Origin: Rhodamnia argentea
Lineage: Eukaryota; Streptophyta; Magnoliopsida; Myrtales; Myrtaceae
Length of the DNA: 64,000 nucleotides
Assembly (NCBI RefSeq): GCF_020921035.1
Contig: NC_063157.1
Span: 25,127,015 to 25,191,014 of the forward strand
Direction: 5' to 3'
In this document: positions 16,048-40,110 of the stretch, piece by piece
Layout of the letters: the number at the start of each line of letters is the position of its first letter
Numbering within the stretch: the stretch's first letter is position 1
Notes under the pieces: model-generated
Database searches by the model: none
Told to the model about the DNA's origin: nothing
Seen by the model: only the letters and a program-made list of their open reading frames with translations
Translations under genes and position numbers: made by a program

Positions 16048-19000
16048 ATGAGGAAGAAGCTCGACACTCGCTTCCCGGCGGTAAGCAGACGCTAGTTTCT
16101 GGCCATGTGACTCTGTTATTGTCGCGCGTGTTGTTTTCCCCCTTTTCTTTTGTGTTCTTTTTTTTTTTTTAAAGGTTTTTCTAGTTATTTTTCAGCCGAG
16201 CTGAACGCGTCGTGCATGGGGCGCGTTTACATGGTTCTGTTCTGTTTTTTTGTTTTTCATCTCCCGGGCGTGGGTTGTGCTCCGAACTGTGATTATGCGT
16301 CGGTTTTTCCGTATCTAATTGATCTTGAATTCGGTGGGCGAGAGGTTGTGATTGCGAATTAGCTGCAATGGTGCGTTTTTGCGACGGCTAATAGTTGACA
16401 TGAATTAGATATTTTGGCAGAAGTTAACGCAAGCAGTGTTCGTATTCAGTTGGGACATGCTTCTGATCGTAGTTTACTGGGTTATCTGTCATTATTTCGA
16501 ATGCTCGTAGCCATGCGATGATGCACGACATCGATTTCTTAGCAGTTGGAGAATTGTTTGTCCAGCAATACTATGCACTCAGTTACTTTACCAGTTTCGC
16601 GTTTGCACTGTGGAACACATGCCAAAGTGACAGTCTTTTCGTGCCTATGTTGGTTCATTTGAAGTGATGTATCTTGTTGACTTGTGGATTATTGGAAATT
16701 TTTGTATCTCAGGACTAGCTTGCATGGGTGGGGTATATCTAATTAGCATTAGGCAGACATCTGAATCATAGATTCCTTTTTCTCTTGGGAGGATGGTTTG
16801 CCGAGGAAGACTCTCCTTTTGGATATCTGGCTGTGAAGTGTTAGTGAAACTGAAGAAAGAGCTATTAGCTTTAGAAGTCAAAGCGAGTTTCTTGTTTCCT
16901 TAGCAAGTAAAACGAGGATGTTTTGTTCCTCTTTGGAACGTAGGTTAAATTAATCCAGGAACTCAAATAGTGATAGCAATTGCCTCTTGTGGACAAAAAC
17001 TACACGAGCCATTATAGGACAAATGGCAAACTACTAACTATGGAATGTGCGAAATTCAAATTGATAGCCTATAGTATCAAAAGTTTCACAGTGCTTACTT
17101 GCATTTTCTACGATGCAAATCCATTATTACTTCCATAAAATATGTTTCACAGGTTGAAAGTTGTGCTTGTACTCAGCTTATGGTCTCCTTAGATAAATTA
17201 GTGACGGTTGGACAAGCCAACATCTATTCTGTCAGTATTGTATAGCTGAAATAGGCTTAATAGTTGGAACTGTTTGTCCATTCTCATTAAGAAGCTTTGG
17301 TTTTCCCCCTTGTCTTGTTCTTGTTCTTGTTCTTGTTTTTCTTGCCATTGGAGAAGCAATTAGATGAACTCCACATCAGTTTTTTTTGGCATCCTCAAAA
17401 TGAAAAGAAGTGAAAACTGTATGCAGAATTGGCTGATTTTATGAAGCTACCTTATTGAATAAGGATTAAGTGCTTGCACAAATCACAAGGTAAGAATGGA
17501 TGGTTGATGTTAGTGCAGAAGGGCAGTCCTTAAAAAAAAAAAATCAAGGTGAAGTTTTTGACTGAAAATAAGCGGATGAGGTACTTCAGCTTGTAGACTC
17601 AGATTCGTCAAGTTTGTTTAAGTTTTGCGGAGAGCAAACAGTTAATTGCTAAGGCTCAATGGTTGAGTGCTGAAATTCTTATGACAGAAGTGTTGAGCTC
17701 ACTTTAGGATCAAACAACAAGTGGACGTAGTGTTTTCTTCGGAAACAGGGGTAGGCAACTTGATGTCCGCTTATAATACAGATAGATGATTTTTAATTTG
17801 TCTGACGTCATTGTGATGGCCAAGCTAAAACTGTCCTGGTTTGTCACCCGATGTCTTGATGTTTGGGCTTCAGGTTCACGTACCTGGCCGTGAATTCTCT
17901 GATGTCCCTCATCCGTTCTACTGTTTACGGAATAACTTTGTGTGATTGACAGCAATTCCTTTTATAGGCCCGGATTAAGAAAATTATGCAAGCTGATGAG
18001 GATGTTGGGAAGATTGCTATGGCTGTGCCTCTTCTTGTTTGTAAGTGCACATCATCTGCATTTTGGTCGGTTTATTCCTCTCTATTTCATAATTGATAGG
18101 ATTGGCCTGGAGACTTGCTTTTGCAGTTGATCTCATTTATGTCAGCAAGAAAATCTCACTTTGATAAATCATTGCTCATGCTCTTCTATCATAATGTCCA
18201 GCTAAGGCATTGGAACTGTTCCTGCAAGACCTTTGTGATCGGACATATGATATAACCTTGAAGAGGGGAGCTAAGACACTGAACTCCTTGCATCTGTAAG
18301 CAGACTTATAGTATTTTGTCTTCCCCCTTTCTCTCTTTTTTTTCTCTTCCTTCCTTTCCTAGTTAAGATTCCCTTGTTGTGCTGGGGAGAATTGCTCCAC
18401 TGCTTGATTTTCTCTTCCTTCCTTTCCTAGTTAAGATTCCCTTGTTGTGCTGGGGAGAATTGCTCCACTGCGTGATTTTCTCTTCCTTCCTTTCCTAGTT
18501 AAGATTCCCTTGTTGTGCTGGGGAGAATTGCTTCACTGCTTGATTTTCTCTTCCTTTGCCCCCTTCAAGCATGCGAAATTGTATGTATGGGATTCCTGAT
18601 TGGGGAGCATTTTTCCCTATCTTCCTCCTCCCTGCTTTTTCCCTTGAAAGAGAATATGGCAGAATTTAATGTTCTCTCTGTCCCCTATTTCTTTCCTTAG
18701 AATAGTTGTTTCGAGGTGAATAGCTCTATAACTCTGCTCCTTTACTGCAGGAAGCAGTGTGTTCAAACCTTTAACGTATTTGATTTCTTGAGGGAAATTG
18801 TGAGCAAGGTTCCTGATTTAGGTGGTTCCGACACTGCTGGAGATGATCGGTCTGCTGCTAAAAGAAGGTTAGGTAAATGTGAATTTAGAAGTTTACCATT
18901 TCAGTGAGGGGATATGGATATTGATTTCACTTTATGTATTTGATTATCAGGAAAATGGTTGATGATGGGGAAAATGACACTGATGATGAATCAAAGAGGA

Positions 19001-35953: not shown

Positions 35954-38632
35954 ATGGCCGCGAGAGCTGTTGTTCCACAACCCAGAGGTTGGCTTCAAAA
36001 GTTTGGATCTTGATTGCATGATCGTTCCTTCTTTGATCAGATCGTTAGTGGGTGTGTTTTGAACCCTTCGTAGAAATGAAGAGTTTTTTCTTTTGGGTAT
36101 GAATTTTGAGTTCGGTTTGGTGGCGATTATGTGAAAGCTGCTAGCAATCTTTTGTCGGCAATTCGACGAGTTAGAATGGAAGTTCTTCAATTCTGCATGT
36201 CATTGACGAAATTTTCAGCCTAGACATAAATTTTCCGCTAATCGTCGGTTTAGTGAAAAGTCTTTTTTTGTTTTTTTTTAAGTCTGATCGATTACCATAG
36301 TCCTACATCATTCTCGCTGTTCTCGTTCGTGGTACTTTGTTTTCTGGGGCAATAGCGTAACGTGAAAGAAAATCCCACCCAAGGTTTGGTTGCGCAGAAG
36401 GCTTTCACATAAAGATTGGTTTTTTTGATAATGGGTTCTTCCAAGAACTTTCGAGTCTTGACTCCTTCTTGAGCATGAGGGACGTGAAGTGAAATTTTAA
36501 CCTTCCGGGTACTTGTAGGAGGAGAAAATCATAAGAATGTGGCCGGAGAAGCAGCAAGGCACAGACGAGCTCTTCAGGATATTGGTAATCGAGTGTCAGA
36601 GCGAGCTGCTCAACAGGTATAAACTTGGGACCTAGTTATATGTGTCAATTCATGCTCTGAAAATCGCCTTTCGGTTGGAGTTGAAGTGAAATCTGAACCA
36701 GATATCTTGTGTGTTAGAAAAATGCAAAGCAAGCTGTAGATCGAGCATTAGCAAACAAAAGAACAGTCACAGAAGTAACAGGCGCAGCCAAAGAGAAGGC
36801 CCTTGAGAAACCTGTACCTGAGTCTGTTGTTGTGATAAGCTCCACAGAAGAAGACAACAGTAAAGTTGCTGTTAGAAGGGAACCCAAAGCAGCTGTAGAT
36901 CGTCCATTAGCAACCAAAAGAACAGTGACAGAAGTAACAGCTGCACCCAAAGAGAAGGCCCTTGACGAGCCTGTACCTGAGTCTGCTGTTGTGATAAGCT
37001 CCACTGAAGAGGAGAACAGTAAAGTTGCTGTTGGAAGGGTACACAAAGAAGGGCCCTCCACAAAGAAGAGTCTCACTTCTGTTCTCACGGCACGAAGCAA
37101 GGTAAAATTCGAAAACTTTTTATAATACTATCATAGTACCATCTTTATGTATGTTTTTACTATTTTTACTCTTTTGCTTATTGTGCTTTCGATGATGTAA
37201 TTCTTTTTCACCTTCAGGCTGCTTGTGGGCTAGCTAATAAGCCTAAGGACTGCTTAGTGGACATTCGAAGCAAGGTAAAATTCGAAAACTTTTTATAATA
37301 CTATCATAGTACCATCTTTATGTATGTTTTTACTATTTTTACTCTTTTGCTTATTGTGCTTTCGATGATGTAATTCTTTTTCACCTTCAGGCTGCTTGTG
37401 GGCTAGCTAATAAGCCTAAGGACTGCTTAGTGGACATTGATGAAGCCGACGCTAATGATGAGTTGGCCATGGTCGAGTACATCGATGATATCTACGCTTA
37501 CTACAAACTCACAGAAGTAAAACTTTTAGCAGAATGTCATCTTCTGACGTGTGCGCACATTTGTGTACTTGCATGTTGCTCACTTATCTAATACTTCAAC
37601 AGGACGATGGTCGAGTACATGATTACATGGATAACCAACTGGAAATCAATGTCAAGATGAGAATTATCCTGGTGGACTGGCTGATAGAAGTTCACCGCAA
37701 ATTCGAACTCATGCCAGAAACTCTGTATCTCACTGTAAACATCGTCGACCGGTACCTTTCCATGAAAGTGGTCCGGAAGCGGGAGCTCCAGTTGGTTGGG
37801 ATAAGTGCGATGCTAATAGCATCCAAGTATGAAGAGATTTGGGCACCGGAGGTCCTTGCCTTCTTCCCTAACTTATCCTGATATGCTTCGCCATAAAAGT
37901 TTACTTTGAGAGGAAGTTTTTTAATTTGGATTTCGGTTTTCTTTTTGCAGGTCAGTGACTTTGTAGTCATATCAGACAATGCTTATGTTAGAGAACAAGT
38001 GCTGGTCATGGAGAAATCAATATTGGAGAAGCTGGAATGGTATCTGACGGTTCCCACACCATATGTCTTTCTAATCAGATACATCAAAGCCTCTATTCCA
38101 TCTGATAAGGAGGTAAAAAACCCTGTCCTAACTTAGCGTACTAATACCGTGTTTTTTCATTGAAGTGACCATAATTTTTTGCCAATGCAGATGGAGAACA
38201 TGGTGTTATACCTGGCTGAGTTGGGTTTAATGTACTATTCCACAATAATCCTCTATTGCCCCTCTATGATCGCCGCATCAGCAGTTTATGCAGCCCGGTG
38301 CACCCTTGGGAAACACCCATTTTGGACTGAAACCTTGAAGCACCACACAGGGTACTCTGCAGATCAGCTGATGTGAGTTTATATCATGGTCTCTCACTGG
38401 TCTTCTTCCATCTCATGAATTGGGATGGTTATATATGTCTGTTTATCATTGATGGTGAATTGAAGTGCTTCATTTTTTTGTGGACAGGGAGTGTGCAAAG
38501 CTTCTTGTTCACTTTCACTCAGAGGCCGCAGAATTTAAGCTCAAAGCCGCTTATAAGAAATTCCAAAGTCCCGATCGAGGTAGCGTGGCTCTTCTACCTC
38601 CAGCCAAAAGCCTTTCGGCTGAAGAACCATGA
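35954..38632 (+). CDS. CYCB1: G2/mitotic-specific cyclin, B1 type
   Basis: This is the regulatory partner of CDKs at mitosis and is degraded by the APC/C. Coding exons: 35954-35987, 36519-36616, 36718-37101, 37218-37274 (duplicate, optional), 37391-37516, 37603-37851, 37951-38112, 38191-38372 and 38488-38632. All junctions keep frame, giving about 478 aa with the duplicate exon or 459 aa without it. The N-terminus [12 protein letters not shown] is typical of plant B1 cyclins. The destruction box RRALQDIGN is at residues 27-35. The cyclin box covers about 225-420 with [16 protein letters not shown] (252-267) and [10 protein letters not shown]. Exon 3 contains a two-copy 53-residue tandem repeat (about 45-150). 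The donor of the KYEEIWAPE intron is GTCCTT, unusual but forced by the conserved frame. MSA elements upstream imply G2/M expression. Confidence 0.93.
36718..37035 (+). repeat. Two-copy 159-bp coding repeat in cyclin B1 exon 3
   Basis: The sequence GCTGTAGATCG...GTAACAG recurs 159 bp (53 codons) downstream, at 36733 and 36892. Both copies encode a variable-linker segment ([14 protein letters not shown] ... [14 protein letters not shown]). They differ by several substitutions, so this event is older than the perfect duplication further down. It lengthens the disordered region between the destruction box and the cyclin box and leaves both domains intact. Confidence 0.9.
37093..37438 (+). repeat. 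Perfect 173-bp tandem duplication spanning intron and exon start
   Basis: Units 37093-37265 and 37266-37438 are identical by eye over all 173 bases. Each holds the last 9 nt of exon 3 (CGAAGCAAG), the whole intron and the first 48 nt of the next exon. The copy thereby makes a new 57-nt exon (37218-37274, 19 codons, phase 0) flanked by intact GTAAAA donor and TTCAG acceptor. Its inclusion would repeat [16 protein letters not shown] in the protein; skipping it restores the standard length. Confidence 0.95.
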
Positions 38633-38731
38633 GACGTTCCCAGCTAGGACCAGATTTCAATTCTGCAGGACACCGGTTTGGGGGGCGGGGGGGGCTTGTA
38701 GAGAGAAGTTTCCCGCTTGCCTTTTAGGGAG

Positions 38732-39112
38732 GAGAGAGATCATCTGGCTTTTATGATCTTTAGATTTCTTAGTGATTTTCTTTTGGGATGCCCGTGTAAG
38801 CAATGACTGATGAATGTGGATTTGCTGTTACTGACTTCTTGTTGATATTTCACTCAGCTTGTGGTCCATGAGCACTATCTCTTTCCCCTCTATTCTCCTC
38901 AAATTGAACTTGGGGAAAACAGGAAAGTAGGAGAGAGATCATCTGGCTTTTATGATCTTTAGCTTTCTTAGTGATTTTCTTTTGTGTGACGCCCGTGTAA
39001 GAAATGACTGATGAATGTGGATTTGCTGTTACTGACTTCTTGTTGATATTTCACTCTCAGCTTGTGGTTCCCCTCTTTTCTCCTCAAATTGAACTTCGGG
39101 AAAACAGGAAAT
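38732..39112 (+). repeat. 199-bp tandem duplication in the cyclin B1 3' region
   Basis: GAGAGAGATCATCTGGC starts at 38732 and again at 38931. The two copies run on in parallel through GATGAATGTGGATTTGCTG and AACTTGGGGAAAACAGG. They differ by small substitutions and an indel of about 18 bp (CCATGAGCACTATCTC is missing from copy 2). They lie just after the cyclin stop, probably in its 3' UTR. Confidence 0.85.
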
Positions 39113-39519: not shown

Positions 39520-40110
39520 TCACTCAGCCTCTCTCGTATCTCCATTACAGCCATCATCTATCTTGACTTTAGCACCGCAACAGCCGTGCCCGTTGGGCTT
39601 GCTCTCTAATTGTTTCCTGCAGCACCTATATTCGTCCCGACCGCCTTTCTCAAGCTCCGACTTCCTTTCCAGAAACTCCTTATTCTCCTTCCAGACCTCA
39701 CCATTGGTGTATACCTCTTTCTTCCAGATGGGGACAGATGCCTTTATCTCGTCGATCAGAAACTTACAAGCATCCAGCGCATCGTCCCGGTGAACCGATG
39801 ATACTGCAATGAAGACACTCGTTTCTCCAACCGGGACAGGGCCAAGGCGGTGGGCGGCTGCGATGGACATGAGATTCCAGGATGATCTAGCTGATTGACA
39901 TGCGGACTTGATGCACCGTACAGCCATCGGCACATATGCTTCGCACCGGAGCTCCAAGACCGTTTTGCCCTCAAATGTGTCGCGAGTTGTTCCAGAAAAT
40001 GTTGCGATGGCACCGGCCTGTGGCGCGCTGACATAATTGATATATTTGGCCATATCAACTGGGTTGTGTTCTTCCAAGATTTCAATAAGATCTCTATCCT
40101 CATCAGCCAT
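39520..40110 (-). CDS. CNX6: Molybdopterin synthase catalytic (large) subunit, MoaE/CNX6
   Basis: The enzyme inserts sulfur into precursor Z (cPMP) to make molybdopterin, the second step of molybdenum cofactor synthesis. It works with the small thiocarboxylated subunit CNX7 in the cytosol, and the cofactor serves nitrate reductase, xanthine dehydrogenase and aldehyde oxidase. It is one coding exon of 196 aa. MoaE motifs are all visible: GAIATFSGTTRD (33-44), LELRCEAYVPMA, AAAHRLGPVPVGE (84-96) and the active-site Lys region KASVPIWKKE (123-132). Plant orthologues usually have Tyr at position 56 of the LELRYEAY motif; here it is Cys. The last ~45 residues are Lys/Cys/Glu-rich and variable, as in other plant CNX6. 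A ~0.9-kb leader intron (about 40178-41105) separates it from its 5' exon. Confidence 0.95.
   Translation of the reverse strand: MADEDRDLIEILEEHNPVDMAKYINYVSAPQAGAIATFSGTTRDTFEGKTVLELRCEAYVPMAVRCIKSACQSARSSWNLMSIAAAHRLGPVPVGETSVFIAVSSVHRDDALDACKFLIDEIKASVPIWKKEVYTNGEVWKENKEFLERKSELEKGGRDEYRCCRKQLESKPNGHGCCGAKVKIDDGCNGDTREAE

Follow-up and report, generated by a model that had tools for sequence, protein, structure and literature searches.

The window, by which we mean the whole 64-kb stretch of DNA analyzed, contains a B-type cyclin gene on the forward strand. Its gene model was inferred from reading frames, splice-site letters and likeness to cyclins, and each of the eight introns in this model starts with GT and ends with AG. 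We take the gene to be of the B1 type from its AACG..NKPK..VDI block, which is common to a related gene on contig C7. The features of the locus are as follows.

35954..38632, + strand: B-type cyclin gene, ATG to TGA, nine inferred exons (gene model, Pfam)
35954-35987, 36519-36616, 36718-37101, + strand: exons 1 to 3 (inferred gene model)
37218-37274, 37391-37516, 37603-37851, + strand: exons 4 to 6 (inferred gene model)
37951-38112, 38191-38372, 38488-38632, + strand: exons 7 to 9 (inferred gene model)
36732..37049, + strand: tandem repeat within exon 3, in frame and diverged, two copies of 159 bp (53 aa each) (repeat search)
37093..37265, + strand: first copy of the 173-bp unit (repeat search, string equality)
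37266..37438, + strand: second copy of the 173-bp unit, equal to the first (repeat search, string equality)
37102..37217, + strand: intron copy 1, GT..AG, 116 nt (sequence, splice-site letters)
37218..37274, + strand: exon 4, new, 57 nt, phase 0 (inferred gene model)
37275..37390, + strand: intron copy 2, GT..AG, 116 nt, identical to copy 1 (sequence, splice-site letters)
38730..39111, + strand: third tandem duplication, downstream of the stop codon, with a unit of about 190 bp (repeat search, alignment)

Two other features of the window were recorded. An open frame of 196 aa, in which Pfam matched a MoaE domain (1.2e-36) and which presumably encodes the large subunit of molybdopterin synthase, lies on the reverse strand at 39520-40110, and a 68-bp unit is repeated 3.2 times with 97% identity at 18340-18556.

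The two 173-bp copies abut head to tail and are 100% identical by repeat search and by string equality. The unit opens with the last 9 nt of exon 3 (CGAAGCAAG), runs through a 116-nt GT..AG intron and takes in the first 48 nt of the exon that follows, which amounts to 116 intronic and 57 exonic nucleotides. The bases outside the copies differ on both sides (A37092 versus T37265; C37266 versus G37439), indicating that the unit is exactly 173 bp long and that the junction lacks microhomology, for which the flanking bases were inspected. A chance origin of the exact repeat was ruled out by the 173 identical bases. Exon 4 contains no in-frame stop and encodes the 16-aa AACG..NKPK..VDI block followed by RSK, and the source of the extra intron is the neighboring intron, to which it is 100% identical. 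The gene contains adjoining homologous exonic copies, each with splice-site letters, as in a tandem exon duplication. Joining of the inferred exons predicts a protein of 478 aa with exon 4 and of 459 aa without it. The initial annotation had proposed a perfect tandem duplication that creates a 57-nt phase-0 exon with intact splice sites and allows proteins of 478 and 459 aa, and our exon and intron anatomy agrees with it on each of these points. Its further suggestions, that the gene may make both proteins and that partner or degradation behavior may be affected, go beyond what this anatomy shows.

Pfam matched Cyclin_N at residues 224-349 (3.1e-48) and Cyclin_C at residues 351-469 (3.6e-38) of the 478-aa form. 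Destruction boxes follow the pattern RxxLxxIxN, and RRALQDIGN at residues 27-35, near the N terminus, fits it. The altered segment lies between this destruction-box-like motif and the cyclin box, where the initial annotation had placed it. Exon 4 corresponds to residues 173-191, so that the linker preceding the cyclin box would gain 19 residues.

The closest relative of the cyclin gene found elsewhere in the genome is the gene on C7. It contains a single copy of the block AACGLTNKPKEQIVDI and, at the RSK|AACG place, one intron of 91 nt. A repeat search of 2,801 bases of this relative found nothing resembling either coding duplication; the only two direct pairs reported were 34 nt each, with 76% and 71% identity. 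The 173-bp duplication is thus absent from a gene of the same genome. When exons 6 and 7 were compared with their C7 counterpart, dN was 0.22 and dS was saturated. Since synonymous sites of the cyclin box are saturated, the C7 relative is distant; it polarizes the duplication but cannot date it. The intron at 37852-37950 of the cyclin gene has no counterpart in the C7 relative.

The age of the duplication was estimated from the identity of its copies. If the duplication is real, zero differences over 173 bp give a 95% upper bound of 1.2, 3.5 or 8.7 million years, and the 116-nt intron alone gives 1.8, 5.2 or 12.9 million years, at rates of 7e-9, 2.5e-9 and 1e-9 per site and year, respectively; any gene conversion would lower the apparent age of the pair. 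The absence of any difference, intron included, also fits an assembly error, and the choice set out in the initial annotation, between a very recent event and an assembly artefact, stands.

We therefore weighed the possibility that the plant has one copy and that the second 173 bp was introduced by the assembler or during polishing. In 264,000 bases of the same genome, comprising the window and 20 10-kb stretches at hand-chosen round coordinates, Tandem Repeats Finder reported 13 rows with a period of at least 50, some of them overlapping, and the 173-bp pair was the only row with 100% matches. This exception and the lack of any difference in the 116 nt of intron favor an artefact, as does the position of the pair 43 bp behind another tandem repeat, which makes the place harder to assemble. 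On the other hand, neither the window nor the 8,001-base locus surrounding the duplication contains any N letters, contigs C1-C11 are chromosome-scale (23.9-37.3 Mb), and 2 x 173 bp would be readily spanned by long reads if the assembly used them. The exonic gain is also frame-neutral, which an error would produce with one chance in three. Short-read assemblers tend to collapse repeats of this kind rather than to expand them. Taken together, we regard an assembly artefact as unlikely, although it is an explanation to be taken seriously.

Searches of the assembly (346,658,060 bases) were evaluated on the best-scored candidates. Among these, the 173-bp unit was matched at one place, the full-length flanks were matched once, and no second assembly copy with the one-copy state was found. 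One flank search returned its own locus and four short matches to intron 2, and a second returned its own locus and parts of the relatives on C7 and C9, again among the best-scored candidates. The intron 2 matches involve 36656-36710, are 44-51 bp long with 86-96% identity, and lie on C22, C16, C8 and C4; this stretch is perhaps a small repeat element. Junction DNA had no match in a viral contig database, and DNA from inside the unit had none in a genome contig database; both outcomes are expected for plant DNA and carry no weight.

The cyclin gene contains two further tandem duplications. The 159-bp copies in exon 3 are 89% identical, with 18 of 159 bases differing, and double a 14-aa block. 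The changes between the 53-aa copies are 12 nonsynonymous and 6 synonymous (dN 0.107, dS 0.172). The copies of the third duplication, which probably lies in the 3' UTR, occupy 38730-38926 and 38929-39111 and, with gaps disregarded, agree at 174 of the 179 bases aligned. Outside the cyclin gene, the 264,000-base yardstick holds five places with a period of at least 90, two of them on C12, a small contig; tandem duplications are nothing out of the ordinary in the sampled DNA. Against these five places, 0.077 tandem duplications would be expected in 4 kb, where three were found (Poisson, 7e-5; for two or more, 0.003), but the comparison was made after the fact, with a small yardstick of non-random placement, and the third duplication was not listed by Tandem Repeats Finder, so that the figures are a hint of a duplication-prone locus and not a test. 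The exon 3 duplication and the one downstream of the stop codon, neither of which the initial annotation mentioned, make a real 173-bp duplication more plausible.

Three tandem duplications within one gene might also mean that this cyclin copy is weakly constrained and decaying, with the 173-bp copy as one of several lesions. The 12 nonsynonymous and 6 synonymous changes in the 53-aa repeat are in line with this explanation, and so is the donor GAG|GTCCTT (37849-37857; intron at 37852), which agrees with the consensus at only 5 of 9 letters, a score that two other donors share. However, the open frame is full-length and both cyclin domains score strongly in Pfam. The comparison of exons 6 and 7 with C7 also speaks against decay, as a dN of 0.22 against a saturated dS reflects purifying selection, on the pair overall rather than on the cyclin gene alone. 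We consider a decaying gene very improbable.

We examined the splicing signals carried by the duplication. The duplicated donor, AAG|GTAAAA, agrees with the plant consensus at 7 of 9 letters, the top score among the gene's eight introns, and the duplicated acceptor agrees at 5 of 6, with one other intron of the eight reaching 6. Both intron copies contain 49% T and 26% GC; none of the other introns is as rich in T or as poor in GC. If the first intron copy were retained, a stop would be reached at codon 180. Short introns such as these are expected to be removed separately, by intron definition. Because the two introns are short and T-rich and have identical splice sites, routine inclusion of exon 4 is to be expected rather than a regulated choice.

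Regulated isoforms are nevertheless possible: the 478- and 459-aa cyclins could be made according to tissue or condition and behave differently or, less likely, exons 4 and 5 could be mutually exclusive. The frame is kept when 37218-37274 is skipped, and duplicated exons are described as a source of alternative splicing (PMC9013439, PMC2674458). For tandem exon duplications, PMC9013439 puts forward the hypothesis that a copied arm of an intronic stem-loop leads to mutually exclusive splicing. Folding of 37050-37520 was ordinary, with a z score of -0.84 and an equally or more stable fold in 18 of 100 shuffles; this test found no unusual RNA structure in the region in terms of overall fold stability and does not address competing structures. 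Moreover, the splice sites of both copies are identical, and nothing was seen that would mark one of them for regulation. Exon 5 (126 nt), like exon 4 (57 nt), is a multiple of three, and either could be skipped in frame. A message lacking exon 5, however, would lose residues 192-233, including the start of the Cyclin_N match, and for this reason a mutually exclusive choice between the two exons appears unlikely. In titles and abstract openings on plant cyclin B1 and alternative splicing we found no such case, which we do not take as evidence of absence. Regulated production of two cyclins thus seems to us rather improbable.

The explanation that we favor, with some confidence though well short of certainty, is that a 173-bp segment made up of exon, intron and exon was recently duplicated head to tail in a B1-like cyclin gene, with both introns probably spliced by default. 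Since the copied segment comprises an entire intron flanked by exon ends, all splicing signals would have been carried along, and one step would have produced a new exon and a new intron together. The plant nucleus would then remove the two short, T-rich introns one by one. The 478-aa form would be the main product, and skipping of exon 4, which restores the ancestral layout of 459 aa, would be minor; this ranking of the splice forms is drawn from intron length and composition.

A PDB sequence search was carried out with a 291-aa query in which residue 18 is the start of the VDI that ends the duplicated block. The human cyclin B1 chains 9q3n, 9skq and 7nj0 align from residue 18, and the other chains start after it, among the best 60 of 65 matched sequences. 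Alignment ranges were read from the match table, and the printed alignments were those of two cyclin A2 chains. Because these PDB chains align from VDI or later, nearly the whole block lies outside the aligned core (best 60 of 65). The 19 extra linker residues are probably close to neutral. A more far-reaching alternative is a young, perhaps segregating allele that provides a second B1-like isoform, in which the doubling of the conserved AACG..NKPK..VDI linker block would alter cyclin binding, placement or destruction in mitosis and splicing would set the dose; we give it little credence.

If real, the duplication would be a very young case in which one mutation gave a gene of the core cell cycle both a new exon and a new intron, with all splicing signals inherited and the frame intact. 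Newborn copies are identical at the start, so their handling by splicing could be measured before selection acts. Apart from this value, the event would be minor, a linker change that is probably near-neutral.

The closest parallel that we found is the potato RdRp gene PGSC0003DMG402000361, in which, according to PMC4974935, a tandem duplication over an intron/exon border gave rise to a new intron, as documented by genomic and RNA reads. In both plants an intragenic tandem duplication is associated with a new intron, extra exonic sequence and inherited splicing signals, and both genes contain a second tandem duplication, which in potato is 83 bp long and lies in the first intron (PMC4974935). 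In potato, the duplicated segment covered the 3' part of the intron together with the beginning of the exon, and the donor is a cryptic exonic site (PMC4974935), whereas in the cyclin gene the entire intron was copied with both exon ends. The potato copies differ at ten nucleotides, and their case is backed by reads (PMC4974935); the cyclin copies are identical and known from assembly sequence. The model of Rogers, described in PMC4974935, in which an AGGT-bearing exon stretch is duplicated, likewise yields one more intron from a tandem duplication, but there coding sequence turns into intron, whereas the cyclin gene had a ready intron as its source.

The cyclin gene also resembles the tandem exon duplications treated in PMC9013439 and PMC12343006 in that exonic sequence is doubled inside one gene. 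In the full-exon duplications described there, one exon between introns is copied, often discussed with mutually exclusive choice; exon 4 of the cyclin gene, in contrast, is chimeric, joining the start of one exon to the end of the preceding one. Exonize (PMC12343006) defines an inter-boundary class of matches that contain exonic and intronic sequence, and it reports that across 20 genomes the genes with partial, inter-boundary and intronic events outnumber those with full-exon ones. Exon duplications, including ones that span exon and intron, are already catalogued (PMC9013439, PMC12343006), and to these the cyclin gene would add a case in which a complete intron was copied with both exon ends and no divergence is visible.
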